From contig NZ_CP113910.1 in assembly GCF_024701375.2 (NCBI RefSeq), positions 4,402,001-4,466,000 of the forward strand: a stretch of DNA of 64,000 bases, read 5' to 3'. The notes under the pieces are model-generated. The model did not search any database and had not been told where the DNA came from. It saw only the letters and a list, made by a program, of their open reading frames with translations. The stretch comes from Streptomyces sp. KMM 9044 (GTDB lineage Bacteria > Actinomycetota > Actinomycetes > Streptomycetales > Streptomycetaceae). The position numbers and the translations under genes were made by a program. Below are positions 27,382-51,760 of this stretch, in pieces. How positions within the stretch are numbered: the stretch's first letter is position 1; each line of letters starts with the position of its first letter.

Positions 27382-29844
27382 GGCCCCAACCCTAGGTCAG
27401 GGCCCCGGGCGGATGAGGGGCAGAGCGCCAACAGATGATCTGTTGCGGTCGTTCGTCCACAGCCGACCGGGGCATACTTCTGGCCCGTCGGGCATGGTCG
27501 ATAGGCTGGACCACCTGCTGTGATCCGGCCACCGGCAGGGAAACAGACGAGACAGCGAGATACGGAAAGGGGCGTCGCGGTCATGCGAGACGGCAGGTGG
27601 ACCACTGTCACCGAGTCGCAGTTCCAGCACGAGCGCAGCGGACTGCTGTATCTCAAGGAGAGGCTCCCGGACACCGAGCCCTACCGCGCCTGGTCGAACT
27701 TCACCTTCACCGCCCACAGCGGCCACGTCCGCGAGGTCGACCTGCTGGTCGCCGCTCCGGCCGGTCTCTTCCTGGTGGAACTGAAGAACTGGCAGGGCAC
27801 GGTCACCTCCTCGGGAGCGAGCTGGGTGCAGACCCTCCCCGGCGACCGCACCCGCCTCCACCGCAACCCCCGCCACCTCGCCAACCAGAAGGCGAAGGAG
27901 CTCAAGGGCCTGCTCAGGGACGCCCTGCGGAAGACCGACCCCCGGCGTCACGTCCCCTACATCCAGGAACTGATCTTCTTCACCGACCCCGGTCTGCGCA
28001 TCCGGCTCGCGCCCAGCGACCTGGCGGGCGTCTTCGGCAAAGCCGGGCACAGCGGGCTGGGCGACGTCCTCGCCGAACTCCAGCGTCCCGCGCGTGACGT
28101 CAAGTCGGGCGTCGACCGCGAGTTCTCCCGCGGGCTGGGCAAGCTCCTGGCCGAGGTCGGCATCGGCCGTTCCGATGCCGAGTTCCACGTCGGCACCTAC
28201 CGCCTGGACCGCACCCCTTTCGACACCGGGCCGAACTGGGCCGACTACCTCGGCCGTCACGACTCCCTGAGCAAGACCCGCCGCGTACGCATCTACCTGC
28301 GCGAACGCGGAGCGGACCGGCAGGCCCGCGAGTCCATCAGCCACACCGCCGAGCGCGAGGCACGCGCACTGGAAGGCCTCAGACACCCGGGCCTGGTCGC
28401 CCTGGAGAACTTCGACGAGAACGGCCACAGCGCCGGCCCCGCCCTGCTGTACGCCTACGACCCGCGCACGCTCCGCCTGGACGACTACCTCCTCCAGTAC
28501 GGCGCGAAGCTGGACGCCCAGGCACGGGCCGCCCTCCTGCGCCGCCTGGCCGAGACCGTCCACTACGCGCACCGCCACCTCCTCTTCCACCGCGCCCTGC
28601 ACGCCCGCGCCGTCCACGTGCTGCCCGGCCCGCGCACCGGAACCGGCAGCGACGAGGACCGCTGGCTCAACCCGGTTCTCCAGATCGCCGAATGGCAGAC
28701 GGCGGTCCGCCATCCCCGCCCCCAGGGTGTCGCGGGAGGCTCCGGCTCCTCCCTGAGCAGCGGACACGAGATCATCCCGTCGAACAACCTCGCCGCGTAC
28801 GTCTCCGAGGCCGCCGACCCCTATCTCGCCCCCGAGGTGACCGCGAAGTCCCCGGACCCCACCGCCCTCGACGTCTTCGGGCTGGGCGTACTCGGCTATC
28901 TGATCTTCACCGGCAAACCCTCCGCGAGCAGCCAGGCGGAACTGGGCGCCAGGCTCGAACAGGGACGCGGGCTCGTGCCCTCCGCCGTGGCCGACGGCCT
29001 GACCAAGGACGTCGACCAGATCATCCTGGACGCCACGGCCTTCGACCCGCACCGCCGCGGAGTTCCTGGAGTGGCTCGACGTCGTCGAACAGGGACTCAG
29101 GCCCGCGAGGCCCGAGCCGCAACCGACCCCGGAAACCCCGGGCGAGGAGGGCGACCCGCTGGAGGCCGCCCCGGGCGACGTCGTCGGCCGCCGCTTCCGC
29201 ATCAAGCGCAGCCTGGGCCAGGGCTCCACCTCCCGCGCCCTGCTCGCCGAGGACCTCGAACGCGACAAGGCGCCGGTCGTCCTCAAGATCGCCCGCAAGG
29301 ACAAGTACGCCGAGGCGCTGCGCCGCGAGGCCGACGTCCTGTCCAAGCTGCGCAACGACTCCAAGGTCATCCACCCGGCCCTGTCCGAGCCGATCCGCAT
29401 CGGCCCGCGCACCGTCCTCGTCCTCGACCACGCCGGCGACCGCACCGTCGCCCGCCAGCTGCGCGAGCGGGGCCCGCTCCTCACCGACCAGCTGGAGACC
29501 TACTCCACCTACCTCTTCGCCGCCGTCGACTTCCTCGACGGCGAAGGCGTGTGGCACCGCGACCTCAAGCCCGACAACATCGCCATCCGGGTCCGCCCCA
29601 ACGGCACCCGGCAACTGGTCCTCTTCGACTTCTCCCTCGCCGGCCTCGACGTGGACGCCGTCCGGGCCGGCACCGAGGGCTACCTCGACCCGTTCGTCGA
29701 GAACATCACCCGGGGCCGATACGACGCCCATGCCGAGTGGTACGCCCTGGCCGTCACCCTCCACGAGATGGCCTCCGGGGAACTGCCCCAGTGGGGCGAC
29801 GGCTCCGTCCTCGCGCGCCAGACCGACCCCAAGAAGTGGCCCCA

Positions 29845-29853
29845 CCCCAGGAT
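29845..29853 (+). repeat. 9-bp target-site duplication, left copy (CCCCAGGAT)
   Basis: Identical to 32150-32158 and directly abuts the left inverted repeat of the IS. Confidence 0.9.
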
Positions 29854-29884
29854 GGGTGTGGCTCTGTCTGAGTGAGATCCCGAG

Positions 29885-31420
29885 TCAGGCTTGAAGTGCG
29901 TATATGTGCTGGTCGGGTAAGGGATGGAGTCGTTCGTGCTCCTTCCGCGTGTGGAAGATCCAGTAGTCGGGGAAGTCGCCGTTGCTGATGACGGCGCGGA
30001 GGGTGAGGACGGCTTCGGCGCCGGGGACGGTCCACCTGCTGCCGGTGATGTCGAGTCTGTCGGCGACCAGATGGCGGGCTGCTCCTTCGACGGCGCCGCT
30101 GGCGATCGGCCAGCCGGCGGCCAGGGCCTGGTCGTAGTGGACGAAGTCGGCGTTGTTGTCCAGGTATCGGCAGGCTTTGTCCGCGGCGGCGCGCTGGTCG
30201 TCGCTGAGGTGGTGGCGGTCGGCTTCGGCGCGGATGTCGTGGGCGGCGCCGGGGGCGTCGCCGGCCAGGATCCGGGCGGCCTTGCTGCCGACCCAGTCCT
30301 CGGTGGCGGGATCGGTGGCGGTGTGGAAACAGCGAGCGGCTGCCCACAGCTTCTCGATCACGTGGACGATGTCGAGGACGATGTGGATCGTGACATTGCG
30401 GCGGGCGGCCTCGGCCTGGATCAGCTCCCGCTGGTGGGTGGCGCCGTCGATCAGTACGACCCAGGTCCGCCTGTGCTCGGGGTCGCGGGCTTCGGCCTGG
30501 TCGAACGCGGCGGCGATGACGGTTTCGGCGTCCTCGCGGACGGAGGCGGTGAGCCATTTCGCCCGCGCGGTGGGTCCTTTGCGGACGGTGCGGTGGCCGG
30601 TGCGGCCGCCGGGCGGGGCGATGACGTCGTGCGGGCGGCGGACGGCAGGCTCGGCGTCGTGGACGACGGCGAGGGTGGCCATCCTTTTGCGGCAGGACTT
30701 CTCCCCGGCCGCGAGCCGGGTGCGGAAGGTGCGCCGGGCCCTGGCGGCGGCCTTCGCGGTGGCCTCGCGCAGGTGGCCCGGGCGCATCACGATTCCCTTC
30801 TGGTCGACACTGAGCACCAGCAGCGTCCCGGCCGGGGCCGGCGCGGGGGTGCGGGCCGTATAGAACGCGGCGACGTCCACGGCCGCGGCCCGCACCAGAT
30901 CCTCCACCTGGCGTTTGCCCACCACCCGGCCCCCGCAGCCGCGGTCGATCGCTTCCAGCGCGGTGTCGTAGGAACTACGGACCGCTTCGAGGACCGCGAG
31001 GCGGCGCAGTCCCAGACTGTGCCGGCCGTGGGGCAGGCCCAGCATGGCGTCGGCGGGGTAGAGGTTGGTCATGCCCGCGCCGCGCAGGGCGCACCGGGTC
31101 ACGGTCACCGGCCCCAGCACGGTGGCCAGTTGCCGCCGGTGGCCCTTCTCCAGCCGGCTCCGGCCGCCGGCGAGCGCAGCCCGCTCCCGCGGACCGAGGG
31201 CGGACAGGTGGTCCTCTTCGTGGCGGGCCCGCCACTGGAGATGGGCCTGCAGGAGCAGTCGCCCCAGCTCCCGGGAGCCCGCTTCGACGTCGGCCTCCAC
31301 CTGTTCATGCGTCGCGGTGAGTGCTTCAGGGCCGGAGAGGCGGGTGGTCAGCAAAGTGAGGGAAGAAAACACGCGGGCAAAGGGGTCAGCCGCCGCGGCC
31401 GTTTCATACGCTGCGTTCAT
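29885..31420 (-). CDS. ISKra4-family transposase
   Basis: A 511-residue transposase. The DDE core is recognisable: LLVLSVDQKGIVM (first Asp), RTWVVLIDGATHQ with NVTIHIVLDIVHVIEKLWAAA (second Asp), and GWPIASGAVEGAARHLVADRLDITGSRW (third acidic residue). Long helical inserts follow the family pattern. It ends 31 bp from the left IS end, is intact, and is preceded by the accessory gene in the same orientation. Confidence 0.85.
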   Translation of the reverse strand: MNAAYETAAAADPFARVFSSLTLLTTRLSGPEALTATHEQVEADVEAGSRELGRLLLQAHLQWRARHEEDHLSALGPRERAALAGGRSRLEKGHRRQLATVLGPVTVTRCALRGAGMTNLYPADAMLGLPHGRHSLGLRRLAVLEAVRSSYDTALEAIDRGCGGRVVGKRQVEDLVRAAAVDVAAFYTARTPAPAPAGTLLVLSVDQKGIVMRPGHLREATAKAAARARRTFRTRLAAGEKSCRKRMATLAVVHDAEPAVRRPHDVIAPPGGRTGHRTVRKGPTARAKWLTASVREDAETVIAAAFDQAEARDPEHRRTWVVLIDGATHQRELIQAEAARRNVTIHIVLDIVHVIEKLWAAARCFHTATDPATEDWVGSKAARILAGDAPGAAHDIRAEADRHHLSDDQRAAADKACRYLDNNADFVHYDQALAAGWPIASGAVEGAARHLVADRLDITGSRWTVPGAEAVLTLRAVISNGDFPDYWIFHTRKEHERLHPLPDQHIYALQA

Positions 31421-31468
31421 CGGGCTCTCGTCCTCGGACAGTGGCGAATTCGGTTGGCACCATCGACG

Positions 31469-32047
31469 CTAGGGACGAGAGCCCGGCCCCACACCGGCGC
31501 GACGCCGCCCGTCGGCCGCGGCTTCCCGCTCCGGCGCACCCGCTCCCGCCCTCCGCGCGCCGCCCCACGCGAACAGGCCCGGCTCGTCCTCGGCCAGCCA
31601 GCCCCGCTCCACCAGCCGTTTCAGCTTCGAACGGAACCCCTCCACCTTGTTCTTGTCCGTCGACAACCCCAGCGCGGCGCACAGATGATGCGCCCGCATC
31701 GGATGCACCGCGTCCTGCAACACCTCGACGACGTCCCGGTACGAGCGCGGCAGCACATCCGCCTCAAGCCCCGGCTCCCACTGCGGCACCAGCCGCACCC
31801 CGACCGGCGATCCCGCCCCGCTCCCCTCCACCGGCACTTCCCCCGCGGCCTCGTCCACGGACACCCTCACCGCCCCGTCGCCGGACAGGATCTCCGTCAT
31901 CGTCTCCCGGGTGATCTCCAGCCGGGACAGCCTCTCCTCCCGGTCAGCAACTCGCCTGGTCAACTCTGCGATCTGGGAGCGCAGTTCGGCGATTTCCTCC
32001 CGCGCGGCAGCCTCCCGCCGATCGAGCTCCTCCAGCCACGACACCAT
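31469..32047 (-). CDS. IS accessory protein: coiled coil plus winged-helix-like domain, unknown function
   Basis: A protein of about 192 residues inside the IS. Residues 1-50 form a charged coiled coil (EELDRREAAAREEIAELRSQ). The middle is acidic, and the C-terminal part (LPRSYRDVVEVLQDAVHPMR, then LKRLVERGWL) looks like a winged helix. ATG 32047 is chosen because GGAGG lies 5 bp upstream; a GTG at 32065 is the alternative. Similar proteins occur next to such transposases in Streptomyces as far as I recall; a DNA-binding helper role is inference. Confidence 0.6.
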   Translation of the reverse strand: MVSWLEELDRREAAAREEIAELRSQIAELTRRVADREERLSRLEITRETMTEILSGDGAVRVSVDEAAGEVPVEGSGAGSPVGVRLVPQWEPGLEADVLPRSYRDVVEVLQDAVHPMRAHHLCAALGLSTDKNKVEGFRSKLKRLVERGWLAEDEPGLFAWGGARRAGAGAPEREAAADGRRRAGVGPGSRP

Positions 32048-32149
32048 CGCCGCCTCCAAGACCACGTCTCAGGACACGACGATCCGCCGTCCGCGCACGA
32101 ACGGCAACGGCGCACGGCATCACCAGCTCACTGAAGAAGAGCCGCACCC

Positions 32150-32158
32150 CCCCAGGAT
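32150..32158 (+). repeat. 9-bp target-site duplication, right copy (CCCCAGGAT)
   Basis: Directly abuts the right inverted repeat of the IS. pglW coding resumes here with CC-AGG-ATC-GCC. Confidence 0.9.
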
Positions 32159-32449
32159 CGCCTCCGAGGCCTTCGACTCGGCCCTCCGGGACGGCCTCAC
32201 CGAGTTCTTCGAGTGTGCCCTGCACCGCGACCACCGCAAGCGGTTCCCCGACCTGAAGGAGATGCAGCGCGCCTGGCAGCGCGTCTTCGCCGGGCCGCGG
32301 CTGGACGACGTGACCGTGTCGATCGAGGACCGCGAGGAGTGGATCACCCTCAATCACGCGTGGGTCGTCAACGACCCGGGGGAGGAGCAGGCGGCCTGAC
32401 GCGTGGCCGGCCGCCTGCTCGTCCTCTCCCGCTTCTCCGCTTTCCCCGC

Positions 32450-33212: not shown

Positions 33213-34055
33213 ATGGCAGGCCGACAGAACCGCAACCAGGACCTGGACCCGTACGCTTCGCCGCGAACCTTCTTCGGCAGCGAACTCCGGCGGGTCCGAG
33301 AGGCCGCCGGCCTCTCGCAGGACCAGCTCGGTGAGCGGGTGTTCTGCTCGGGTACGTACATCGGCCAGTTCGAGTCTGCGACGAGGCGTCCGCAGCCGGA
33401 CCTGTCCCGGCTCCTCGACGACGTCCTGGGCACCGGCGAGCACTTCCAGCGACTGTGCGAACTGGCCCGCAAGTCCAAGCACGCCGACTACTTCGCGGAC
33501 GCGGCGGAGCTGGAGACACGGGCCAAGACGATCAGCGAGTACGCGCCGATGCTGGTGCCGGGGTTGTTGCAGACGGAGGGGTACGCGCGGGCGTTGACGC
33601 GGGCCACGCTGCCTTACGCGTCAGAGGATGAGGTGGAGGGGTACGTACGCGCCCGAGTCGAGCGTCAACGGATTTTGGACGATTCCGCAGGACCTCTGCT
33701 GTGGGAGATCGTTCACGAGGCAGCCCTGCGTGTGCCAGTTGGAGGAACGGACGTCATGGCTGAGCAGTTGGCCTGGCTTGCGAAGCTCGCTGGTACCCGT
33801 GGCGTGTTGATCCAGGTCCATCCATACGAGGCGGGGCCTCACACCTTCATGATGGGGGTGGTGTCTCTCATGACCTTCAGGGGCGCACCACCCGTTGCCT
33901 ACGTAGAGGGCCCACACAGTGGCCAACTCATTGACGACCTGGCACTGGTTGAGCGATACCAAACGTCATACGATCTGGCCAGGGCCGCCGCATTGCCGCC
34001 GGGGGCGTCTCTCACTTTGATCGAATCGGTGGCGGAGGACTTGTCGAAACCATGA
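33213..34055 (+). CDS. XRE-family regulator with DUF5753 domain
   Basis: A 280-residue protein. It has an N-terminal HTH (FFGSELRRVREAAGLSQDQLGERVFCSGTYIGQFE), and a C-terminal DUF5753 domain follows (ISEYAPMLVPGLLQTEGYAR, VERQRILDD, GVLIQVHPYEAGPHTFMMG). This is one of the very common Streptomyces XRE/DUF397 pairs, of the type that includes WhiJ-like developmental regulators. Its stop overlaps the DUF397 start (34052-34055). From about 33650 the GC content is lower than in the surrounding genes. Confidence 0.88.
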   Translation: MAGRQNRNQDLDPYASPRTFFGSELRRVREAAGLSQDQLGERVFCSGTYIGQFESATRRPQPDLSRLLDDVLGTGEHFQRLCELARKSKHADYFADAAELETRAKTISEYAPMLVPGLLQTEGYARALTRATLPYASEDEVEGYVRARVERQRILDDSAGPLLWEIVHEAALRVPVGGTDVMAEQLAWLAKLAGTRGVLIQVHPYEAGPHTFMMGVVSLMTFRGAPPVAYVEGPHSGQLIDDLALVERYQTSYDLARAAALPPGASLTLIESVAEDLSKP

Positions 34056-34267
34056 CCACCCCGCTCGACCTGAGTAACGCGGTATGGCGCAAGTCGTCAT
34101 ACACCAACGGTGAAGGGGGCAACTGCGTCGAGATCGCAGAAGGCTTCCCTGGCTTGATGCCTGTCCGTGACAGCAAGCGCCCTCAAGGGCCAGCCATCCT
34201 CTTCGAGGTCGAGGGCTGGGCGTCCTTCGTGTCAGCTGTCAAGAAGGGGATGGTCGGTCCTCACTGA
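34052..34267 (+). CDS. DUF397 protein, partner of the XRE regulator
   Basis: A 71-residue protein with the family signature WRKSSYTNGEGGNCVEIAEG and VRDSKRPQGPAILFE, then a FVSAVKKG tail. DUF397 proteins are thought to act with, or antagonise, the upstream XRE protein. Coupled by a 4-bp overlap. Confidence 0.88.
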   Translation: MTTPLDLSNAVWRKSSYTNGEGGNCVEIAEGFPGLMPVRDSKRPQGPAILFEVEGWASFVSAVKKGMVGPH

Positions 34268-37200
34268 CTCATGCCTCACAGTCCGCGCCAGCCCCGTCAC
34301 TCACCTGATTGGCCGTCACGTTGCTGGAAGGGACCTATGCGGCAGCTGCCGCCCCCTCGCAAGCCTCTGACGCGCCGCAGCAGAAGGCGGCAGCCACGCA
34401 AGCCGCCGACATCCCGTCCGCCCGGGTGGCCGCCCGACTGTCCGGGAAGCGGGTCGAGGCGCTGTCCGAGCGCACCGAGACCTCCACGACGTGGGTGAAC
34501 AAGAACGGCTCGCTCACCACCGAACTCACCGCCGGACCCATCCGGTTCGAGGACGGCGCCACCGGAAAGTGGCGCGAAGTCGACCTCGACCTGGAGCGGA
34601 GCACGGACGGCACGGTCGAACCCAAGGCTCACCCGCGCGGCCTGCAGATGGCGGGCAAGTCCGGCACGCCGGCGGCCTCGCTGAAGGCCGCGCGCGAGGC
34701 CAAGGCCACCGACCTGGTCACCCTCGGCGAGGGCGACCGGCAGATCACCCTGCAGTGGAAGGGCGGGCTGCCCAAGCCCGAACTTGACGGAACCCGGGCG
34801 GTCTACCCCGAGGCCCTGCCCGACGCGGACGTCGTCATCGAGGCCACCCGCACCGGCTTCGAGCAGTTCGTCGAGATCAAGAAGCGCCCCGCTTCCAATG
34901 ACTACTCCTACACACTGCCGCTGAAGGCCAAGGGCCTGAAGGCCAAGCAACTTGGCGACGGCAGCGTCCAGTTCACCGACAAAAAGGGCAAGAAGCAGGC
35001 AGTGATGCCCGCGCCGGTGATGTGGGACTCCACCGTCGACAAGAGATCCGGTGAACACACCCACCAGGCCCGGGTCGGCATGAAGGTGGTACAGAAAGGT
35101 TCCTCCGTCGACCTGGTGATCACCCCGGACGCGGAGTTCCTCGCCGACCCGGAGACGAAGTACCCGGTGACGGTCGACCCCTCGACCTCCTCGCTGGGCA
35201 ACGTCTTCGACACCTACGTCCAGCAGGGCACGACCGTCGACTGGTCCACCGACGTCGAACTGGACTTCGGCAACCCGGGGACCACGAACGCCGACGGCAC
35301 CCCCCCGCACTGCGCAGTCCTTCATCACCTGGAACACCACCCCCGTCCAGGACGCCCTCGTCCTGGACGCCAAGCTGAGCCTGTGGAACTTCCACTCCGG
35401 CAACAACGCCGACTGCAAGGCGTACCCGTGGGAGGTGTGGTCCTCGCCCGCGGCATCCACCTCCAGCCGGTGGACCAACCGGCCGGTCATGACGGCGAAG
35501 AAGGCCACCTCCACCGAGACCCGCGGCAACACCTCGTGCACCAGCCAGCCCGACGGCTGGATCAACGCCGACGTGACCACGCTGGCGCAGGAGTGGGCCT
35601 CGGCCAAGGCCACCCGCGGCCATATGGGCATCCGCGCCACCGACGAGTCGGTTGCGGCGCAGTGGAAGCGCGTCAACTCCGCCAACGCTGCCACGAACCC
35701 ACCGAAGCTGGTGGTCACCTACAACTACCGGCCGCGTACCGGCACCAAGCAGGAGGCCGGCCCGCCGTACTTCTCCTACAGCGGCGAGTACGTGGTCAAC
35801 ACCACTACGCCGATGCTGCGGGACACGTTCATCGACGCCGACGGTGACAAGGTCAACGGCACCTTCCAGATCTTCGACAACGCCACCAACACCCAGGTCG
35901 GCGACGTCATCGTCTCCAAGTACGTGCCCTCCGGGCAGGTCGCCTCGGTGACCGTCCCAACCGGGGTCCTGACCGACGGCAAGACGTACAAGTTCCGCAC
36001 CAGCCCGTACGACGGCACGCACTACAACGCCGGCTGGTCAGCGTGGAAGACGTTTGCCGTTGACACCAAGGCGCCCTCCGCGCCCTCGAAGGTCACCTCG
36101 ACGGACTACCCGTCGAACGCCTGGGTCAAGGGCGCCGGCCAGGCGGGCACCTTCACCGCCACCCCGCCCTCCGGCAGCGACCACCACTGGCTGGAGTGGT
36201 CGCTGGACGGCGTCGCCTGGACCAAGGTCACCACCAGCGGCTCCAGTGCCGCCAAGGCCATCTCCATCACTCCGCCGAAGGACGGCACCCACACCCTGCA
36301 GGTGCGCGCTGCGGACAAGGCGGACAACAAGTCTGAAGCGATCGAGTACACCTTCCACGCCGGTCCCGGCGGCTTCCTCCAGCCCTCCGGCGGCGAGCGC
36401 ACTACCCGCCGCCTGCCGCTGGTCGCCGAAGCCGACGCGAGCAAGTACGACAAGGTCTCCTTCTCCTGGCGCCGCTCCGAGGCCGACGGCTGGGTGAAGA
36501 TCCCCGTCGGGGACGTCACCGCCAACGGCAACGCCCTCACCGCCTGGCCCGTGGCGCTGACCAACGGTAAGAACGCACAGCTGGTGTGGAACGCCACCAG
36601 CACCGTCGACCCCGACGGCTCGGTGCAGATCAAGGCCGACTTCACCGGCCCCAACAGTGCCTCGGGCAGCACTGAGCCGCTGACCGTCGTCGTCGACCGC
36701 AGCGCCGATGGCGCCGCCACGCAGGAGATCGGTCCCGGCTCCGTGAACCTGCTCACGGGCACCTATTCGATCGATGAGGCGGACACCTCCTACTACGGCA
36801 TAGGAGTGAACCGCACCGCCTCCTCCCGCACGCCCGACGCAGGGGCAAAGCAGGAGGGCCAAGCGGCGATCTTCGGCAAGGAGTGGGTAGCCGGCACGAC
36901 AGCGGAACTGACCGACTCTGACTACTCCCATCTGAAGCAGATCTCCGCCACCGCCGTAGCCGTCGTCACTGCCGACGACAGCGAAATCCACTTCACCGCC
37001 AACGCGGCCAAGACCGGCTGGGTTCCCGAGCCCGGCGCGGAGCACCTCACCCTCAAGGGCAGCACCACTGGGTCCTTCACACTCACCGACAATCAAGGCG
37101 TGGTGACGGAGTTCGCCAAGCCCGACACCGACGCCACCACCTGGCAGGTCTCCAGCACTCTGCTGGACGGGCTGTCCAACTCCACGACCACAGTGGTCTC

Positions 37201-40168
37201 CGAGGCGGTGACGGTGAGCGGGGCGAAGCTGGCTCGTCCCAAGCGGATCATCGCCCCAACCTCGGCGGTGTCCGCGGCGACCTATAACACGACTCCGACC
37301 ACCAAGGGCTGCCGGGTGCTGGAGTTTGTCTACGCCACCTCCACCACGGCCACGCTCGACTCCTTTGGCGACTACGCGGGACAGGTCAAGGAGGTCCTGC
37401 TCTATGCCACTGGCAAGGGAGGTTCCTCTGCGACCGCGAGGGCCGTGGCCACCTACCGCTATGACGCCGAAGGCCGTCTGCGCCAGGCGTGGAACCCCCG
37501 CCTGGCGCAGTCGACGCAAACTCAGTACGCGTACGACGCAGCGGGCCGTGTCACGTCCTACAGAATGTCCACCGACCAGCCGTGGACCTTCACCTATGGC
37601 AAAGCTGGTTCGGCCGCGGCCGCCGGTGAGGGCATGCTGCTCAAGGCGAACCGTCCGGCACTGAAGCAGGGCACCACGAACACGGTCGAGGGGACCGCGG
37701 CCACCACCGTCGTCTACGACGTCCCGCTCACCGGCACCGCGGCCCCCTACAAGATGGGTGCCTCGGACGTGAAGGCGTGGAGCCAGACCGACGCACCGAC
37801 CGATGCCACCGCCGTGTTCCCGGCCGACGCCACGCCGACCTCGCATTCGGGCAGTGACCTCACCAGCGGCTCCTACGCACGCGCCAAGATCCATTACCTG
37901 GGCGTCTCCGGCCGCGAGGTCAACTCCGCGTCTCCAGGTGGACACATCACGACCACGGAGTACGACCGGGCGGGTAACACGGTGCGCGAACTGACCGCGG
38001 CCAACCGGGCCGTCGCCCTGGGGCTTGCCACTGCCGACAAGGCGGCCCAGGCGGACCTCGGCATCGCCCAGCTCACCAGCGCTGAACGCGCGGACCTGCT
38101 CGCCACGCGGACCGTCTATAACGACACCGGCACGCGCGAGCTGGAGAGGTTCGGATCGCTGCACCGGATCAACCTCACCACAGACCTGAAGTCTGGTACG
38201 ACTACCCTCGTTTCGGCCGACTCCTCGGTCACCGCCCGCACCTGAACGGTCAACGAGTACGACGAAGACCGTCCCACAGACGGCACCGCCAAGATCAAGG
38301 ATCAGATCACCGAGACGACGGTCGGCGCCCAGGTCCGGGAGCACCCCACCGTCCACGGCGAGACCCGGGTCACGCGGACCGTTCACGACTGGGCCAAGGG
38401 ACAGCCGGTCAAGACGATCCAGGACCCGAACGGGCTGGCTCTGACCACGGTGAGGGGATATGACACCCAGGGACGGATTACCAAAGAACAGCTGCCTGGG
38501 GCCAGCGGCACCGATGCCGCGACCCAGGTGACCACCTACTGGTCCGCCGCCGGCAGCGGCACCTGCGCCGGCCGCCCGGAGTGGGCCGACCTGCTCTGCT
38601 CCACCGGCCCGGCCGGGGCCATCACCGGCGGCGGCAGCAATCCCACCCAACTGCCCACTAACACCTATGAGTACGACTCGTGGGGCAACACCACGGTGGA
38701 GATCGCCACCGCCAACGGCGTCACCCGGACCAGCAGCACCACATACGACGGTGCCGGCCGCCCGACCACCGCAATCGTGACCGGCGGCACGGGGCAGGCT
38801 GTCCCGACCACCACCATCGACTACGACAGCACCACCGGCCGCGCGCTGACGAGCAGCTCGACCACAGCCGGCACCATCACCAAGACGTACGACACCCTCG
38901 GCCGCCAGATCTCCTACACGGATGCCGACGGCGGGACCACCAGGGCCGAGTACGACCTGCTCGACCGCCCCGTCAAGACTACGGACAATTCACCGTCGAC
39001 CGTCACATACGCGTACGACACGGCGGTTGAGCCGCGGGGCCTGGCGACCAAAGCCACGGACTCGGTCGCGGGCGCCTTCCAGGCCACGTACGACGCGGAT
39101 GGAATCCCGAGCACCGAGAAACTGCCCGGCGGATACAGCCTGAACGTGGGGAGGAACCCCGCGGGCGAGATCACCGAACGCGCCTACACGCGTGACTCAG
39201 ACGGCACGCTGGTGTACTCCGACACGGTCACCTCGTCGGTGCACGGCCAGGCCACCTCGCACGCCGGGTGGTCGGACCAGACGCACCGCTACGACGCAGT
39301 CGGCCGACTGGCCGAGGTCCAGGACACGTCGGCGACGATCTGCACCCGGCGGTCCTACACCTTCGACGCACGCGCAAACCGCAAGTCGCTGACCACGGCC
39401 ACCAGCGCGCCGGGCATGGACTGCCCGACCAGCGGCGGCACAACCGTGGCCAGCACCTACGACAGCGGCGACCGCCTCGTAGACAGCGGCTACACCTACG
39501 ACGCCTTCGGCCGCACCACGGCCCTGCCCGGAGAGGGCACAATCGGCTATTACGCTAACGACCTCGTCTACCAGCAGACCGCCGACGGCAGGCGGCAGAC
39601 GTGGCAGCTGGACGCGAACCTGCGTCTGCGGTCGTGGACGACGGAGTCGGGCAGCGGCAGCACCTGGACCCAGACCGGGTCCAAGGTGAACCACTACGGC
39701 GGTGACGACGACGCACCACGCTGGATCGTCGAGAACACGACCACCGGAGAGATCAGCCGCAACGTCGACTCGCTCTCCGGCGACCTCGGCGCCATCACTG
39801 GCCAGACCGGCGGGACTGTGCTGCAACTCAGCACCATCCACGGCGATGTCGCCCTCCAGCTCCCGCTGGACACGTCCCAGGCTCCGATGGCACTGGACAG
39901 CGACGAGTACGGCAAACCCAGGACCGGCCAGTCCCCCACCCGCTACAACTGGCTCGGCACCAAGCAGCGCTCCAGCGAGACGGTCACCGGCCTCAGCCTC
40001 ATGGGCGTCCGGCTCTACAACCCCGCGACCGGACGCTTTCTGTCGACCGACCCGGTCTTTGGAGGCAACGCCAACGCGTACGAATACTGCGTGGGCGACC
40101 CCGTCAACTGCTACGACCTCAACGGAACCTTCCGCTACAGCTACTGGAAGAACCCGTGGTGGTCGCCC

Positions 40169-40177
40169 ATCCAGTAT
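40169..40177 (+). repeat. 9-bp target-site duplication of the MITE, left (ATCCAGTAT)
   Basis: Identical to 40414-40422. Removing the MITE and one copy restores the RHS reading frame (SPIQY-YWVQV). Confidence 0.88.
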
Positions 40178-40413
40178 GGGTGTGGCTCCTTTGGAGGGAC
40201 GGCCCTAGCTGCGTGAACTGCGGCTTGAGGCACGCCCGAGTGATCGACTCGACCACGACAGCGGGTCACGCGGTGACCGGCACCCTCCGCGCTGTCGATC
40301 TTGATGCGACGCGCGGGCGTGACCTGCTGGTTCCGAAAGGATCTCCACGACCGGCAGTCGAGCCCAACCGGCAAATGCCCAGCTCAGCCTGTCCCTCCAA
40401 AGGAGCCACACCC
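40178..40413. mobile_element. 236-bp MITE with 23-bp perfect inverted repeats
   Basis: The left end GGGTGTGGCTCCTTTGGAGG (40178 onward, 23 bp in all) is exactly complementary to the right end (40391-40413). The 9-bp target ATCCAGTAT is duplicated at 40169-40177 and 40414-40422. No gene is inside. The outer GGGTGTGGCTC matches the ISKra4-like IS at 29854, and the duplication length is the same, so this is probably a non-autonomous relative moved by that kind of transposase. Confidence 0.9.
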
Positions 40414-40937: not shown

Positions 40938-40952
40938 CGCGTCCCTATCAGG

Positions 40953-40991: not shown

Positions 40992-41534
40992 GTGAGGGCA
41001 ACCGTCGACGCTCGGAGGGATGGTGACTGGGTCGACGCCGGCAAGGACGGCTGCAGCACCCGCAACGAAGTCCTCCTCGAAGAGGCCGTCAACGCGCCCG
41101 AACAGTCCGGGCGCTGCACGCTGACCGGCGGCACCTGGTACAGCCCCTACGACGACACCTACGTCAACGGCGCCCGCGGCCTCGACATCGACCACCTCGT
41201 CCCCTTGGCCGAAGCCTGGGACTCCGGCGCCGGCACCTGGACGGCAGCCGAGCGCGAGGCCTACGCCAACGACCTCGACGACCAGCGGGCCCTCATCGCC
41301 GTCACCGCCCGCTCCAACCGGTCCAAGGCCGATCAGGATCCCGCCACCTGGCAGCCCCCGGCCGAGACCTACCGCTGCCAGTACTACACCGACTGGGTCA
41401 CCATCAAGACCCGGTGGCAACTCGCCATCGACCCCGCCGAACAGACCGCCCTCGAGGAGCTCGCCGACGCCTGCCCGAACACACCCGTCACCGTAGAAAC
41501 CGCACGCTCACAGCACAGCGCCGCCGGTACGTGA
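40992..41534 (+). pseudogene. HNH-family endonuclease (DUF1524-type), 5'-truncated
   Basis: Residues read WVDAGKDGCSTRNEVLLEEAV, then GLDIDHLVPLAEAWDSGA (the DxDHxxPL catalytic His), AYANDLDDQRALIAVTARSN-RSKADQDPATWQPP, and YTDWVTIKTRW. This is the secreted HNH nuclease family common in Streptomyces. The usual signal peptide and about 60 leading residues are missing: the homologous part starts at about 41023, right after the RHS terminator. Without an export signal or natural start it is probably a fragment left by rearrangement. Confidence 0.75.
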
Positions 41535-42693: not shown

Positions 42694-43583
42694 CGAGCAA
42701 GTACGAGTTCATCGAAACGATGCGGCTCGGCACAGCGGAGTGCGCGTATTCCGTCGAGTTCATGTGTGAACGGCTCGGCGTGTCCAAGTCTGGCTATTAC
42801 GAATGGCGGAACCGTCCCAATTCTGCGACGGTCCAGCGGCGCGAGGAACTGAAACTGCTCATCAAGAAGGCATTCGACATGTCCGACAGCACCTACGGCT
42901 ACCGGCGCATCCACGCCCAGCTCGCCCGCTGGGGCCACACCGCCGGCCTGGAGCTGATCCGTATGCTGATGCGTGAACTGGGCCTGGTGCCCTGCCAGCC
43001 GAAGCCGAAGCGGTGGTCGCTCACCAAGGCCGCCGCGGGCGCCGTGCCGGATCTCGTCGGCCGCAACTTCACCGCCGACGCCCCCGGCGAGAAACTCGTC
43101 GGCGACATCACTTACATCAAGACCGGAGAAGGGTGGCTGTATCTCGCGACCGTCATCGACTGCTGCACGAAGGAAGTCATCGGCTACGCGATGGACGACC
43201 ACTATCAAACTCCCCTCATATCCCAGGCAATTCGCAACGCGGCACGGAACAGGAAACTCGCCGACGGCGCGATATTTCACTCCGATCGCGGGTCGAACTA
43301 CATGTCAGCAGAGTTCGCGGCGACGCTGAAGCGGTTCAGGCTCCGCAGATCTTCCGGGCGTACCGGGGTCTGCTTCGACAACGCCATGGCAGAATCGTTC
43401 TTCGGGGCCTTGAAGAACGAGCGGGTTTCCCGCGTGACTTACCTGCCCCGAGAGGCCGCCCGACAGGACATCACTCGATACATCGAACTCTGGTACAATC
43501 ACAAGCGCCTCCACTCGGCTGTTGGTTACCGCCCGCCGCGAGAAGTCCACGCCGAATACACGGAGTTGCACATAGCCGCGTGA
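42690..43583 (+). CDS. IS3 OrfB (DDE transposase)
   Basis: It continues orfA in the -1 frame; an internal ATG is at 42720. It carries YGYRRIHAQLAR and the integrase core: WGDITYIKT-type region (KLVGDITYIKTGEGWLYLAT, first Asp), AIFHSDRGSNYMS (second Asp) and DNAMAESFFGALKNE (Glu), ending YNHKRLHSAVGYRPP. All catalytic residues are present, so the element may be active. Confidence 0.88.
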   Translation, partial: VASKYEFIETMRLGTAECAYSVEFMCERLGVSKSGYYEWRNRPNSATVQRREELKLLIKKAFDMSDSTYGYRRIHAQLARWGHTAGLELIRMLMRELGLVPCQPKPKRWSLTKAAAGAVPDLVGRNFTADAPGEKLVGDITYIKTGEGWLYLATVIDCCTKEVIGYAMDDHYQTPLISQAIRNAARNRKLADGAIFHSDRGSNYMSAEFAATLKRFRLRRSSGRTGVCFDNAMAESFFGALKNERVSRVTYLPREAARQDITRYIELWYNHKRLHSAVGYRPPREVHAEYTELHIAA

Positions 43584-43662
43584 AATAGACGGTCAGCTCA
43601 CTGTCCGGAAAACGCGAGGCCCCTCAGCTTTCGGTGAGATTGGATCATCGCAAGTCGGATGA

Positions 43663-43826
43663 ATGCTTTTCGATGTCAATCATAACCCTCTGTATCAAAT
43701 CCCGCTTTCTAACGAGGGCGCCAAGAGGCTGATTGACTTTTGGCGCCTCCACGAAGAGCTGGGAGATGGTGGAACTGGTATTGTTCATGACTTCAGGGAT
43801 CCTGATTGGGGCACACGTTTCCTGGT
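43663..43826 (+). pseudogene. pglX: pglX remnant (BREX type 2 DNA methyltransferase)
   Basis: About 55 codons reading PLYQIPLSNEGAKRLIDFWR, HEELGDGG and VHDFRDPDWGTRFL. In BREX type 2 PglX proteins I recall a segment of the form LSxEAxRLxxFWxxxD...VHDFTDPxWDTRFLGDLYQDLS, so this looks like an internal piece of pglX just before that conserved motif. It lies between the IS3 end and another transposase fragment, exactly where pglX belongs (between pglW and pglY). It is AT-richer than its neighbours. The rest of the methyltransferase (about 1,200 residues) is gone. Confidence 0.6.
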
Positions 43827-44174: not shown

Positions 44175-45326
44175 AGTCAGAAGGGCCTGAAGCTGGGCAC
44201 CATGTTCGAGGCCCGCTTCCAGCTCGGCCGGCACTGGGAGGAACACTTCGGGCAGAAGGCAGGCACCGCCTACGACGACCAGGACATCCCCGTCCCCACC
44301 CTCCTCGACTGGATCGACAAGCCGCTCCCGTACGGTCTCGAGCCCACTCTCGCCAACCTGGTGCTGTGCGCCTACGCCGAGCGCACCGACCGGGTGTGGA
44401 CCTACCACGACAGGCCCGTCGAGGTCGCCGACCCCACCGCCCTCAAAACCGTCTACCGCCTGCGGGCCCAGGAACGCCCCACCGAGGAGGCGTGGAACGA
44501 GGCAGTCGAACGCGCGGCACTCGTCTTCGGCGAAGCCCCGCTGTCGCCGATGCGCCGGGCCCGCATCATCGCCGAGTTCAGCGACCGCGTCCGGGCGCGC
44601 GCCGCACAGCTGCGCACCGCGGCCCGGAAACTCGTCGACGAGCTGGAGACGCACGCCGGTTACCTCGGCCTGGACACCGACGACGACGAGGGCCGCCTCG
44701 GCACCGCGCGCCGGGCGGCCGTCCTCGTGGACGACCTCGCCGAGGCCGACCGGCACGACCCGCTCTCCGTCGTCACCCTCCTCGCCGGTGCCGACACCGG
44801 CGACCGGGCCGGACAGGAGCGGATCGGCACGTCCCTGTCCAGTGCGCCCGCCGTCATCAGCGCGCTGGCAGGGGTCCCCTGGTCCAGCGTCTACGACATG
44901 GCCCGTGACGTGCGCGAACCGTACGCCACCGAGACCCGTGCCGTACTCGACTCCCTGCACGGCACCGCACGGGCGGACGAGAACACGGCCGTCCTCGGCA
45001 CCGCCCTGGAGAAGGCGACCAGGGAGCTCACCGCGATCCTGCGCCGCGCCAACGCCGCACAGACCCCGCCGCCCGCACCCCCCGCCACCCCGCAGCCCGG
45101 CCCCGCGCCGGTGCCCGCCCCCAAGCGGTTCCCCCTGGACGACCACGGCACCCCGGGCCGCAACGGCAACGGTGCGTCCGCCACCGTCCCCGAGCAGCCG
45201 TACGGACAGTACGAAGCGGAAGCCGTGGACGCCGTCGACCGGCTGCAGGCGGAACTCGCAGACGTGGCCGAGACCCACCCGCATGTCCGTATCCAGGTCA
45301 CGTGGCAGGTGATCGACCAGCCGTGA
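44175..45326 (+). pseudogene. pglY: pglY (BREX type 2 large ATPase), C-terminal part only
   Basis: About 380 codons, beginning [21 protein letters not shown] and [20 protein letters not shown] and running to TWQVIDQP. The C-terminal linker is Pro-rich. No Walker A is present, because the N-terminal P-loop domain (PglY is about 1,200-1,300 residues) is missing; coding starts abruptly after a TAG at 44172, where the transposase fragment ends. An in-frame ATG at 44202 could permit translation of a fragment. Its stop overlaps the pglZ GTG by 4 bp. The assignment rests on position directly before pglZ and on family-like residues. Confidence 0.72.
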
Positions 45327-48295
45327 GCACGAACAGCACCACCGCCCCGCCGCCCGGTCCCAGCACCGGGCGGTCCCGGCCCAGGCCCGCCCACCCCGCC
45401 GCGGTCGTCCAGGTCCTGGAAGCCCGTTCCTTCACGGAGGGCGAGCCCCGCATCGTCCTCATCCGTGCCGAACCGCACTGGAACGGGCCCCGCCTGCTGC
45501 CGCTCGGCGGCGGCCGGACCGCACACATCGCCACCGCCGTCTCACCGCTGGCCGTGCTGGACACGCTCGCCGCATGGGACCGGAGCGACACCGGTGAGCG
45601 GGACGTACTCGCCGTCCTCACCGACGTGGAAGAAGCCGGCCTCGGCCCCGGTCTCCTCGCCCGGGTCTACCGCAACCGCGTCTACCCCATAGAGTCCTGG
45701 GCCGTCGTCCGCCGCCTCTTCTGCGCCGTGGACCTCGACCCCCGCCTGACTGCCGAGAACTGGGCCGCCGAAGCCCTCATCGATGCCGCAGGGCAGGAGA
45801 GCTGGCCCAAGACCCCGGGCACGATCCTCTCCCGCGACACCGCCCTGTCCAGGCTCGCCGCCGGGCGGCTCTCCACCGCCGCCCATCGCCTCGACCCCGA
45901 CCGGCTCGACCTGCACGCCCTATTGGCCTGGTCTCTCGCCCCCGGCGCGGTCGAACGCGTCGCCTCGCTGCGCGACCAGGAACGACGCGGACTCGCATCC
46001 TGGCTCGCCGACCCCGACCGGGTGGGCCTTCGGTCACACCAGGCGCTCACCGCCCTGTTCGCGCTCTTCGAGGCGGGCAACGGTGCGGACGCGGTGCCCA
46101 TGGGATTGGTGTGCGCCGCTCTCTGGGGCGAGAAGGCGCCCAGAGGCGTGGACCGTGCCCGTGGCCGCGCGGAACTGAAGTTCGACGGCCGGCGACTCGA
46201 CGACGACAGCTTCGCCGCCTTCGGCGCCGAGACCGAGGACTACGTCCGGGTCCTGCTGACCGCCCGCTCCGCGGACGTGACCGAGGACGAACCGGTGCTT
46301 CCGGGGCCCGACCCCCGCGCCCTCATGGCCCGCGCCGACGCCCTCATCCGCGACATGGGAGCAGAAGACGCGGCCGCCGCCAGCGACCTGCTCGAAACCG
46401 GGCAGCGGGCGCGCTACGGAGCCGTCGCCCGTGCCCTCACCGCCTGCGTCCCCTCCAGTCCGGGCAAGGGGCCGGCCGAGCGGCGCATCCGCGACCTGAA
46501 ACACACCGTCGAGCACCTGACCGGCCACGAGCTGTCCCGGCTCGCGAGCCACCGCGCGACGATGACCCGGATCCGCATGGCGCAGCGGCTCGTCCACTGG
46601 CTCGCCCAGCCCTCGGCCACCGCGTTCACCACCGCGGCCGGGGCGGTGCAGCAGCACATCACCACGTACGGATGGGTCGACCTCGCCCACGGCTGGATCA
46701 CCGACGGCGACCACACCCACCCGGAACTGCCCGGCGCCCTCGCCGCACTGAGCACCGCCGTACAGGCCCGACGGCACACCCTCGACGAGGCGTTCGCCAC
46801 CCGCCTCGCCGAGGAGACCCGCAGCGGCGCCGCACCGCGCGACGCCCTCGTCGTGGAGGACTTCGCCCGCCGCGTCCTCGCCCCGGTCGTCAAACCCGCC
46901 CGCCCGTCGAGCGCCGGAAACCCGCCACTCCTCCTCGTCGTCCTCGACGGGGCGAGCGCCGCCGTGGCCGCCGCCCTCGCCGAACAACTGCGCACCCGGT
47001 CCTGGGCGGAGTACGACCCCGTGGCCGACACCGCGGGAGACCGGCGACGGCGCGGCATGCTCGCCGCACTGCCCACGATCACCCGCGCCTCCCGCGGCTC
47101 CCTCTTCGCCGGCGAACTCACCGAGATCGACCAGCAGGAGGAACGCAGACGCTTCGCGGCACACCGTTTCTGGGGCGGAGCCGACGTCCGGCTCTTCCAC
47201 AAGGCCGGCCTTCGGGGAGACGCGGGACACGCCCTCGGCAGTGAACTCGCCGAGGCACTCGCCGACCCCGACACCCACGTCGCCGTCGTCGTCAACACCA
47301 TCGACGACCGCCTCGGCGAGGACCGGGCGACGTCCCACTGGCAGCTGAACGAACTTCTCGGCATGGAGCAACTGCTGGCCCAGGCCCGCACCACCGGCCG
47401 CGCCCTGGTCGTCACCGCCGATCACGGACACGTCATCGACCACGGCACCGACAAGGAGAACGTCCCCGACGCCCTCTCCGCACGGCACCGCAGAGGCACC
47501 ACACCCGCGGGCCGCGGCGAAACCGTCCTCACCGGACGGCGCGTCGTCGCCGAAGGACAACGCATCACCGCCCTGTGGGACACCGGGCTGCGCTACGGAA
47601 ACCGGCAGGCCGGCTACCACGGCGGTGTCGCCCTTGCCGAAGCCGCCATCCCGGTGCTGGCCTTCGTCCCCCACGGCGCATCCGTGCCCAAGGGGTGGAG
47701 GGAACTCGGCCCCCAGCGGCCCTCCTGGTGGTCCCTGAAAGAGGACACCGTTCCCGGCGTACCGGCCCCGTCCCCGCAGACACCGGCCGTCACACCGTCG
47801 GCCAGGCGCACCCCCACGGCCGCCGATCTGCGGAAGAAAGCGGAAGAGCAGCAGGTCGCCGAGCACGAAACCGGTCAGGGAGCGCTGCTGTCCTTCGACG
47901 AGATCAGCACGGCCGAGCCGACCGGGACGGCCGCACCGCCTCCCCCACCCGCCCCCGCCTCGGCCGCCGAACAGCTCACCGCGGCACTGCACGCATCCGA
48001 CATCATGAGCGCCCAACTCGGCTCACTGCCGCGTCCCGAGGAATTCGACACCGTCGCACAGGCCGTCCAGGCCCTCGTCGACGCCCACGGAATCCTGCCG
48101 ATCACCGTGGTCGCGGAACGGGCCGGGAAACGCGCCACGCGCGCCGCGGGCTTCGCCGCCACACTGCAACGCGTACTCAACTACGACCAGGCGGAGGTCC
48201 TCACCCTCACCGACAACGGACGCTCCCTCCGGCTCGACGTACCGTTGCTGCGACGGCAGTTCCGCCTCGACACGACGGGCGGAGCACGGACGTGA
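45323..48295 (+). CDS. pglZ: PglZ, BREX alkaline-phosphatase-superfamily protein
   Basis: A 990-residue protein; the GTG start overlaps the pglY stop. The first 600 residues are helical and lack known motifs. The PglZ domain follows with [64 protein letters not shown] (metal-binding Asp-His) and [20 protein letters not shown], the alkaline-phosphatase-type metal sites. PglZ is the hallmark core protein of BREX. It is full length with no lesion, and its stop overlaps brxD (48292-48295). Confidence 0.9.
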
Positions 48296-49611
48296 CACCC
48301 CAGGGCATCAGCCCCGAACGCCGCATGCGACTGATCGACGCCCTGCGCCGGGGCGCCGTACCCGAGACCGGGCTCGGGGTCCTCGCGGTCGGCCTCGGCC
48401 GGTTCGAGACCGCCGTCGACGCGGAACTCGACGCGGTCGCCACCGGGTCGGCCGTCTTCAAGGCCGTACGGGGTGAATACGGCTCGGGCAAGACCTTCTT
48501 CACCCGCTGGCTCGCCGAACGCGCCAAGCAACGTAACTTCGCCGTCGCCGAAGTACAGGTCTCCGAGAACGAGACCCCCCTGCACAAACTGGAGACGGTG
48601 TACCGGCGGCTCACCGAACGCCTCGCCACCAGCACCTTCCCGCCCAGCGCCTTCCGACTGGTCGTCGATGCCTGGTTCTACGCCCTGGAGGAGGACGCAC
48701 TCGCCGCCGGCGCCACCGACGACGAACTGCCACAGGCCGTGGACGGCCTTCTCACCGCCCGCCTCGCCGAGGTATCCCGCGTCGCACCGGCCTTCGCCAC
48801 CGCCCTGCGCGGCTACCGGCGCGCCCAGGACGCGGGCGACGACGCCACCGCCGACTCCGTCCTCGCCTGGCTCGGCGGGCAGCCCCACGTCGCCGCGGCG
48901 GCCCGCAGAAGTGCGGGCGTCCGAGGCGACCTGGACCACTTTGGAGCACTCGGCTTCCTCCAGGGCCTGCTGACCGTCCTCAAGGACTCCGGCCACCCCG
49001 GGCTGCTCCTGGTCCTCGACGAGGTCGAGACCCTGCAGCGAGTCCGCTCGGACGCCCGGGACAAGGCACTCAACGCACTGCGCCAGCTCATCGACGAGGT
49101 GCACTCCGGACGGTTCCCCGGTCTTTACCTCTTCATCACCGGCACCCCCGCCTTCTTCGAGGGACCGCAGGGCGTCCAGCGACTGGCGCCGCTCGCGCAG
49201 CGCCTGGCCACCGACTTCACCACCGACGCCCGGTTCGACAACCCGCGCGCCGTGCAGCTCAGGCTCCCCGGCTTCACCGTGGAATCCCTGACCGAACTCG
49301 GCGGCAGGGTCCGGGACATCCATGCCTCGGGAACCGAAGGAAAAACAGCCGAACGGGTACGGAGCGTCGTTGACGACTCCTACGTGACCGACCTCGCGCG
49401 CGCCGTGGCAGGAAGCCTCGGCGGCAGAGTCGGCATCGCACCGAGGCTCTTCCTCAAGAAGCTCGTGGGCGACGTCCTCGACCGCGTGGAACAGTTCGAG
49501 GACTTCGATCCGCGCAAACACTACGCGCTCACGGTCACGGGCACCGAGCTCACCGGCACCGAGAGGAACGCCGCGGCAGGCTCGGCCGACGACATCGAAC
49601 TCCCTCTGTGA
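48292..49611 (+). CDS. brxD: BrxD, BREX type 2 ATP-binding protein
   Basis: A 439-residue P-loop ATPase: RRMRLIDALRRGAVPETG, Walker A GEYGSGKTFF (residues 61-70), Walker B LLLVLDEVETL, and LYLFITGTPAFFEG. This is the BrxD/DUF2791 type that marks BREX type 2 loci together with brxHI. GTG 48292 overlaps the pglZ stop. The gene is intact. The role in BREX is unknown beyond association. Confidence 0.88.
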   Translation: MTPQGISPERRMRLIDALRRGAVPETGLGVLAVGLGRFETAVDAELDAVATGSAVFKAVRGEYGSGKTFFTRWLAERAKQRNFAVAEVQVSENETPLHKLETVYRRLTERLATSTFPPSAFRLVVDAWFYALEEDALAAGATDDELPQAVDGLLTARLAEVSRVAPAFATALRGYRRAQDAGDDATADSVLAWLGGQPHVAAAARRSAGVRGDLDHFGALGFLQGLLTVLKDSGHPGLLLVLDEVETLQRVRSDARDKALNALRQLIDEVHSGRFPGLYLFITGTPAFFEGPQGVQRLAPLAQRLATDFTTDARFDNPRAVQLRLPGFTVESLTELGGRVRDIHASGTEGKTAERVRSVVDDSYVTDLARAVAGSLGGRVGIAPRLFLKKLVGDVLDRVEQFEDFDPRKHYALTVTGTELTGTERNAAAGSADDIELPL

Positions 49612-49618
49612 GGTGCCC

Positions 49619-51760
49619 GTGAACGCCGGCGACACCCCGGACGCGGTCGACCGGCTTCACCCCGTCGTCCTGCACCACATCGCCAACACCCTCGGCTGGC
49701 CCGATCTGCGGCCCCTCCAGAAGGCCGCCGTCCATCCGCTCATGGACGGCACGGACACGCTGCTCCTCGCCCCCACCGCCGGCGGCAAGACCGAAGCCGC
49801 AGCCTTCCCACTGCTGTCGAAAATGGCCCGGGCACGGTGGACGGGGACCTCGATCCTCTACGTGTGTCCGCTCAAGGCACTGCTCAACAACCTGCTGCCG
49901 CGCCTGGAGAGCTACACCTCCTGGCTCGGACGCTCCGCGGCTCTCTGGCACGGCGACGTCTCACAGACCCGACGCAAACGCATTCTGTGGGAGCGGCCCG
50001 ACATCCTGCTGACCACGCCGGAATCGCTGGAAGCGATGCTGGTCAGCGCACACGTCGATCACCGTGTCTTCTTCTCGGGACTGCGGGCGGTCGTCGTGGA
50101 CGAGGTCCATGCCTTCGCGGGCGACGACCGGGGCTGGCACCTCCTCGCCGTGCTGGAGCGCCTGGAGCGGGTCGCCGGCTGCCCGGTGCAGCGGATCGGC
50201 CTCTCCGCGACTGTGGGCAACCCCCCGCAGCTCCTGGCCTGGCTGCAGGGTTCCGGTGCCGGGAAACGGCCCTCACAGGTGGTCGACGTCAGCCGCTCCG
50301 CCCCGGCGGCCGCTCTCCCGCCGCCCGGAGACATCCAGCTCGACTACGTGGGCTCCCTGGAGAACGCCGCCGCCGTCATCGCCGCACTCCATCGAGGAGA
50401 GAAACGCCTGGTCTTCTGCGAGACTCGACGGCACGTCGAGAAGCTCGGCGAATGCCTGCGCGCCAAGGGCGTGACCACGTTCCTCTCGCACGCCTCCCTC
50501 GCGGCCGACGAGCGCCGACGCGCCGAGGAAGCGTTCGGTGAGGCGCGCGACTGCGTCATCGTCTCCACCAGCACCCTCGAACTCGGCATCGACGTGGGCG
50601 ACCTCGACCGCGTCGTCCAGATCGACGCCCCGTCCACCGTGGCGTCCTTCCTCCAACGCCTGGGCCGGACCGGCAGACGGCCGGGATCCACCCGCAACTG
50701 CCTCTTCCTCACCCTCGACGAGGACGGCCTGCTCACCGCCGCGGCCTTGCTCCTGCAGTGGTCACGGGGCTGGGTCGAACCAGTGGTGGCCCCACCCGAA
50801 CCCCGGCACATCGTCGCCCAGCAGGTACTCGCCCTCTGTCTGCAGGAGAAGACCGTCGGGGAACACCTCTGGCAGGAATGGTGGGGCGGACTGGGCCCCT
50901 TCGGGCCCCCGGCCGAACCGATCGTGAAACATCTGATCGGCGAGGGCTACTTGGAACGAGACGGCGGCATGCTGTTCATCGGTCCCGAAGCGGAGCAGCG
51001 CTTCGGCTACCGCCACTTCATGGACCTGACGGCGGTGTTCACCGCGGCACCGGAGTTCACCGTGCTCTTCGGCCGTAAGGAGATCGGATCGACCGACCCG
51101 GCCCTGCTGACCGAGAAAGTGGCCGGACCACGACGCCTCCTGCTGGCGGGACGCAGCTGGCAGGTCACCTACATCGACTGGTCCAGGCGCCGGTGCTTCG
51201 TCGAGCCCGTGGAGAGCGGAGGCAAGGCGCGGTGGGCCGGAGCGGGCTTCGCCCGGGGAGCCTCGTACGCACTCACACGCGGCGTTCGCGAAGTCCTGCT
51301 CGGCACCGATCCGCCCGTGACCCTGACACGCCGCGCGCACGACGCCCTGGCCGCAGCCCGCGAAAACGCCGTGGAACGCGTGCACCCGGGCGGAACCGTC
51401 GTCGTCCGTGGCGGTCGCGACACCGGCGTGCGCTGGTGGACCTGGGCCGGACAACGGGCGAACGCCACGCTCGCGGCCACTCTCAGCGAGATCGCCGACC
51501 CCCTCCAATACCCCACGGACGCCTGCATCCGCCTCCGGGAAGACCTGACAGCCACCGAATGGAAGCAGGCCAAGGCCCGGGCGGCGCAGCAGCTCAGCCT
51601 GCCCTCCGTGGATCCGCGTGCAGTGCGGGGGCTGAAGTTCGGCGCCGCCCTGCCGGAACGCCTCGCCACCGCCACGCTGGCCGTCCGCCTGGCGGATGCG
51701 GACAGGGCCGCCTCGGTCCTCGGGGAACCGGCCCGGTTCCCGGCGGCCCCGCCCTCCTGA
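49619..51760 (+). CDS. brxHI: BrxHI, Lhr-like DEAD/DEAH helicase of BREX type 2
   Basis: A 713-residue superfamily 2 helicase: Q-like LRPLQKAAV, Walker A LLAPTAGGKTEA, VCPLKALLNN (Ia), TTPESLEAML (Ib), VVVDEVHAF (II), IGLSATVG (III), LVFCETRRHVE, VSTSTLELGIDVGDLDRVVQ (V) and LQRLGRTGRRPG (VI). GTG 49619 is preferred because TGAGG lies 5 bp upstream; GTG 49613 is possible. It is the last BREX gene. Its final 109 bp, including the stop, are part of a tandem duplication whose second copy lies at 51854-51962. Confidence 0.88.
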   Translation: MNAGDTPDAVDRLHPVVLHHIANTLGWPDLRPLQKAAVHPLMDGTDTLLLAPTAGGKTEAAAFPLLSKMARARWTGTSILYVCPLKALLNNLLPRLESYTSWLGRSAALWHGDVSQTRRKRILWERPDILLTTPESLEAMLVSAHVDHRVFFSGLRAVVVDEVHAFAGDDRGWHLLAVLERLERVAGCPVQRIGLSATVGNPPQLLAWLQGSGAGKRPSQVVDVSRSAPAAALPPPGDIQLDYVGSLENAAAVIAALHRGEKRLVFCETRRHVEKLGECLRAKGVTTFLSHASLAADERRRAEEAFGEARDCVIVSTSTLELGIDVGDLDRVVQIDAPSTVASFLQRLGRTGRRPGSTRNCLFLTLDEDGLLTAAALLLQWSRGWVEPVVAPPEPRHIVAQQVLALCLQEKTVGEHLWQEWWGGLGPFGPPAEPIVKHLIGEGYLERDGGMLFIGPEAEQRFGYRHFMDLTAVFTAAPEFTVLFGRKEIGSTDPALLTEKVAGPRRLLLAGRSWQVTYIDWSRRRCFVEPVESGGKARWAGAGFARGASYALTRGVREVLLGTDPPVTLTRRAHDALAAARENAVERVHPGGTVVVRGGRDTGVRWWTWAGQRANATLAATLSEIADPLQYPTDACIRLREDLTATEWKQAKARAAQQLSLPSVDPRAVRGLKFGAALPERLATATLAVRLADADRAASVLGEPARFPAAPPS

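Follow-up and report, generated by a model that had tools for sequence, protein, structure and literature searches.

The window analysed here (64,000 nucleotides, C1:4402001-4466000, in a genome of 7.43 Mb in 3 contigs) contains a BREX type 2 (Pgl) locus at a ppc-pth insertion site; we judge, at about 85% probability, that it was formerly complete and is in recent decay. Through insertion sequences and deletions it has lost pglX, the greater part of pglY and the working frame of pglW, and the sister strain (G316) lost other genes of the same locus. Profile searches and alignments delimit the locus to positions 27583-51760; together with an AAA_21 gene, its remains lie between ppc (22217-24958) and pth (51990-52751, minus strand). 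PADLOC and NCBIfam profiles identify type 2 PglZ, BrxD and BrxHI genes that adjoin in this order, and pieces of pglW, pglX and pglY are located upstream of pglZ in the canonical order. The features are:

26257..27381, minus: AAA_21 ATPase gene, divergent from pglW (Pfam PF13304)
27583..29058, plus: pglW N-terminal piece, ATG at 27583; 76% identical to residues 28-526 of G088 PglW
29036..29853, plus: pglW Ser/Thr kinase piece in another frame (PADLOC PglW 335 bits; Pkinase 74.8 bits)
29854..32133, minus: ISKra4-family insertion in pglW (transposase 29885-31420, minus; second frame 31469-32065)
32134..32396, plus: third piece of pglW, then its C-terminal end; at ~32291, between the two, ~2.1 kb of the C-terminal half has been lost
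33213..34055, plus: HTH/DUF5753 regulator gene (Pfam PF19054, PF13560)
35171..40216, plus: RHS-repeat frames (cargo) interrupted by an in-frame stop at 38243-38245; PF05593 matches each frame when searched separately
42720..43583, plus: IS3-family transposase, adjoining the pglX remnant (NF033516 299.1 bits, cut-off 160)
43624..43824, plus: remnant of pglX (67 codons, one of them TGA), with 73% identity to a G088 PglX
44187..45326, plus: pglY C-terminal remnant, last ~380 codons (NF047891 positions 927-1296 of 1296)
45323..48295, plus: pglZ, open (NF033446 778.6 bits, cut-off 200)
48292..49611, plus: brxD, open (NF033438 648.3 bits, cut-off 350)
49613..51760, plus: brxHI, open (PADLOC BrxHI 1052.3 bits)
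51652..52055: perfect 202-bp tandem duplication covering the converging 3' ends of brxHI and pth

The initial annotation, which was made from the sequence alone, had proposed a decaying BREX type 2 locus, and both parts of this proposal are borne out: the profiles match, and complete loci with the same gene order exist, as in one G088 locus at the same site (ppc, AAA_21, pglW, pglX, pglY, pglZ, brxD, brxHI, pth). The AAA_21 neighbour and the gene order recur in G085, where one stop is flagged inside the pglX match. The window PglZ is 68.7% identical to that of G088 and 61.7% identical to that of G085, and a plasmid search for PglZ returned 7 records, all below 60% identity. The AAA_21 gene, which adjoins pglW also in G316, G085 and one G088 locus, scores 95 bits against the MAD3 model, under its cut-off of 420.

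The three lesions originally read in pglW are a short deletion inside a direct repeat, which relative to G316 breaks the frame between the N-terminal and kinase pieces, the ISKra4 insertion (transposase NF033572 297.4 bits, cut-off 205), whose site is empty in the G316 pglW, and the ~2.1 kb loss. A tiny pglX survivor had also been described correctly, but at about 55 codons its length was put too low. The pglY gene is indeed reduced to its last third, the remnant scoring 276.5 bits against NF047891 (cut-off 1700), and the window locus is left with no whole PglX, PglW or PglY. Judging from what is known of the family, a locus that lacks PglX and the ATPase part of PglY and whose PglW is broken would carry out neither BREX methylation nor exclusion, and to judge from its sequence the window locus is most likely not working. 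The cargo that separates the pglW and pglX remnants (33213-41534) consists of the DUF5753 regulator, the RHS frames and a GmrSD_C (HNH-type) frame at 40938-41534.

The back half differs in that pglZ, brxD and brxHI have, as first described, full open frames, and these cover nearly the whole of their profiles. The 4-bp coupling noted at both junctions can be read directly as GTGA overlaps at 45323-45326 (pglY-pglZ) and 48292-48295 (pglZ-brxD), and the brxD stop and brxHI start are 1 bp apart. We favour the view that these genes have probably stayed open because the decay is too young to have broken them. Full frames, GTGA coupling and conserved columns would, however, also be expected under retention, and brxHI is whole in both sister strains at 99.7% identity, closer than most flanking stretches; these observations count against decay. 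The initial annotation had offered recent decay of the back half or a separate use of its genes. Under the latter, selection might keep pglZ-brxD-brxHI as a PglX-free defence module, with BrxD loading the BrxHI helicase and PglZ acting as a nuclease or phosphatase. In addition to the open frames, coupling and conserved columns that the window has kept, published work lends this idea some substance. BrxD-BrxHI is termed a tightly linked dyad in the consulted part of a survey of 1309 type 2 taxa (PMC12839542), and Shango has related pairs, in which SngC groups with BrxHI, according to excerpts of a second report (PMC12278908). The survey gives BrxHI in 91%, BrxD in 88% and PglW in about 80% of the taxa.

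Like Shango (SngABC), the window encodes a related ATPase and helicase, which match SngB and SngC at 130.1 and 379.3 bits, but the BREX models score far higher (BrxD 669.8 and BrxHI 1052.3 bits, PADLOC) and pglZ is present. Shango consists of a TerB-domain SngA beside SngB-SngC, and no TerB match was obtained in the 20 frames given to Pfam, a subset of the frames of the region.

Comparison with the sister genome argues for recent decay rather than separate use. The G316 locus lies at the same ppc-pth site but is damaged differently: its pglW (1540 aa, open) and brxHI are whole, and a piece of pglX, interrupted by one stop, continues into the final 90 codons of brxD, after which comes brxHI. 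No match to the RHS/IS3 cargo, pglY or pglZ was found at this site; the sister strain has lost pglZ and most of brxD here, which counts against a retained module. The empty insertion-sequence site and the single copy of the 202-bp segment in G316 further support recent decay. In 500-bp steps, the two genomes are 98.4-100% identical over 25.0-29.85 kb of the window and 96.2-97.8% over 32.0-33.5 kb, falling to 69% just after, and again 98.4-100% identical over brxHI; the rest of the flanks ranges from 82.6 to 99.8%. The two pglX scraps share 71% DNA identity over the 91 bases where they overlap; the two strains thus carry different alleles of the central segment, and the locus is a mosaic.

Had the back half been under selection during drift of the remainder, one would expect poorer preservation in the dead pieces than in the open genes, and this is not seen. 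Preservation was measured as departures at otherwise invariant columns, of which the pglY remnant has lost 1 of 56, PglZ 0 of 88 and BrxD 2 of 185; the numbers are small and the panels differ, with 14 loci for pglY and 23 each for PglZ and BrxD. The rows dropped were G057 (pglZ, short), G316 (brxD, 90 codons), G020 (brxHI, one stop) and G007 (pglY piece, short), and for brxHI the measure is uninformative because the nearly identical G316 copy sits in the panel. Compared with the whole pglW of G316, the pglW pieces differ in 27 of 836 codons (19 synonymous, 8 nonsynonymous), and ppc differs in 71 of 913 (53 synonymous, 18 nonsynonymous); brxHI has 2 synonymous and 3 nonsynonymous changes, too few to use. 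Since preservation of the dead pglY and pglW pieces is roughly on a par with that of the open genes, the open frames are no proof of retention and recent decay is again favoured. The damage looks young, and openness is therefore uninformative, although absence of function is not thereby proven. The case cautions against taking open frames in a ruined defence locus, on their own, as a sign of function.

A third line of evidence for recent decay is that in this genus PglZ is seldom seen without a full-length PglX. We compared 23 other loci from 21 genus genomes and found pglX in one frame in 21 of them, three of which (in G062, G020 and G008) were seen in part; the remaining two (G057, G040) have only pglZ fragments. 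One genome set for locus follow-up comprised 76 of 95, picked by stronger matches, the 19 left out being already in the locus comparison. Counted per genome rather than per locus, 88 of 392 genus genomes have a type 2 PglZ match (E<=1e-30), 82 have a full-length PglX, defined as a match of at least 1480 bits, and 81 have both; in four of the 82 (G280, G382, G212, G085) one stop is flagged inside the match, and G062 and G020 count as full-length. The seven genomes with PglZ but no full-length PglX are this genome (G000), G057, whose PglZ is itself partial, G279, in which both PglX and PglZ are split, G008, G261 and G276, which are cut at contig ends, and G106, with a full-length PglZ and PglX in two frames. 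Only this genome among the seven pairs a full-length pglZ with a scrap or insertion-carrying pglX. In the opposite direction, G028 (~1300 contigs) has a full-length PglX and no PglZ match, and six genomes (G178, G009, G248, G296, G243, G275) have PglX-like matches of 1118-1339 bits, below the 1480-bit rule, and no PglZ match. Retention of the back half as a separate module is thus unlikely, finding no support in the conserved-column test, the sister locus or the genus survey.

Two side observations emerged from these loci. In G106, the pglX frame break (L125, G106:C7:224000-232000) lies near a run of seven C and may be a phase variant or a sequencing error. In several genus loci (L046-L090; e.g. 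G062, G020, G079), kilobases of additional sequence separate pglX from pglY or pglZ from brxD.

The closest known system is the BREX type 2/Pgl locus of S. coelicolor A3(2), with which the window shares the gene families, the order pglW-X-Y-Z-brxD-brxHI seen in related complete loci, and PglZ and BrxD proteins that pass the NCBIfam cut-offs; unlike it, pglW, pglX and pglY are broken. The sections consulted of a study in S. coelicolor (PMC4365076) report that resistance depends on the Pgl proteins tested, among them PglX, the PglW kinase and the PglY ATPase, that PglX is toxic without PglZ, and that phase variation occurs via a G tract in pglX. From this it would follow that loss of pglX is a tolerable first step. 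A more speculative reading makes the half-locus a landing pad rather than a ruin: pglZ-brxD-brxHI would remain either for PglX-free defence or as a permanent antitoxin to PglX alleles that enter by recombination, as the seemingly swapped segments described below might hint; we consider this quite unlikely. Naturally interrupted pglX is on record: part of one report (PMC9716671) describes a truncated pglX in a cyanobacterium and states that pglX interruption occurs in diverse microbes. In those loci, as in the window, pglX is broken and other brx genes remain, but the cyanobacterial system is BREX type 1, whereas the window locus has lost almost all of pglX and its pglW and pglY are broken as well. 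Among the matches listed in a search of the literature on pseudogene, truncated or lost pglX, no description of this locus was found. The locus is an ordinary, well-documented kind of decay.

The initial annotation had also considered that a complete second pglWXY set elsewhere in the genome might support the open genes. A second BREX type 2 locus does exist at C1:688-722 kb, and its pglW (C1:717006-721670, minus, PDLC02512 1542 bits), pglY (1297 aa, NF047891 2268.9 bits), pglZ (976 aa, NF033446 1002.8 bits), brxD (PADLOC 683.9 bits) and brxHI (67% identical to the window brxHI, no stop) are whole, but its pglX is broken too. The presence of both loci in one genome would allow the window half-locus to work in trans with the second; this is very unlikely, as neither locus has a whole pglX, and the second has its own pglZ, brxD and brxHI, the two PglZ proteins being only 44% identical. 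One genome-wide PglX search found no whole pglX in this genome, and because the second locus combines five whole genes with a broken pglX, the strain is predicted to be BREX-negative.

The second-locus pglX is in three pieces (profile positions 2-257, 256-1081 and 1081-1188), the first boundary falling at a shortened G tract immediately downstream of the SAM motif and the second at a 1.76-kb insertion with a transposase frame. The tract is shorter than in G316, G020 and G080, in a surrounding stretch 99.3-100% identical to G316, and it may represent a phase-off state, a mutation or a sequencing error. One-base changes in G tracts are common sequencing errors, and an equally short tract occurs in L175 (Streptomyces sp. 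I6) together with further frame breaks in pglX and pglW; these breaks led us to drop L175 as support for pglX phase variation. Sequencing error is still live for the second-locus tract, but that some lesions of the window locus are sequencing or assembly errors is extremely improbable, as these consist of an inserted IS element, deletions of kilobase size and a short deletion mediated by a repeat.

One genome therefore has BREX broken at both loci, and broken differently in its sister strain. G316 carries the second-locus pglX whole with a matching PglZ, and its PglX is 100% identical to that of NZ_BBNN01000065.1 (Streptomyces sp. NBRC 110035 strain TP-A0873); with a whole second-locus pglX in G316 versus none here, the sister pair forms a natural comparison for the role of BREX type 2 in vivo. 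Sharp differences between the sisters, as if segments had been swapped, occur in the central segment of the window locus and in the C-terminal region of the second-locus pglX. When the second locus (C1:709.7-722 kb of this genome) is compared in 300-bp steps with G316 (L123), identity is 99.3-100% over pglW and the N-terminal half of pglX, and falls to 65-92% over the C-terminal half of pglX and the stretch beyond, a pattern that reads as if a specificity region had been swapped.
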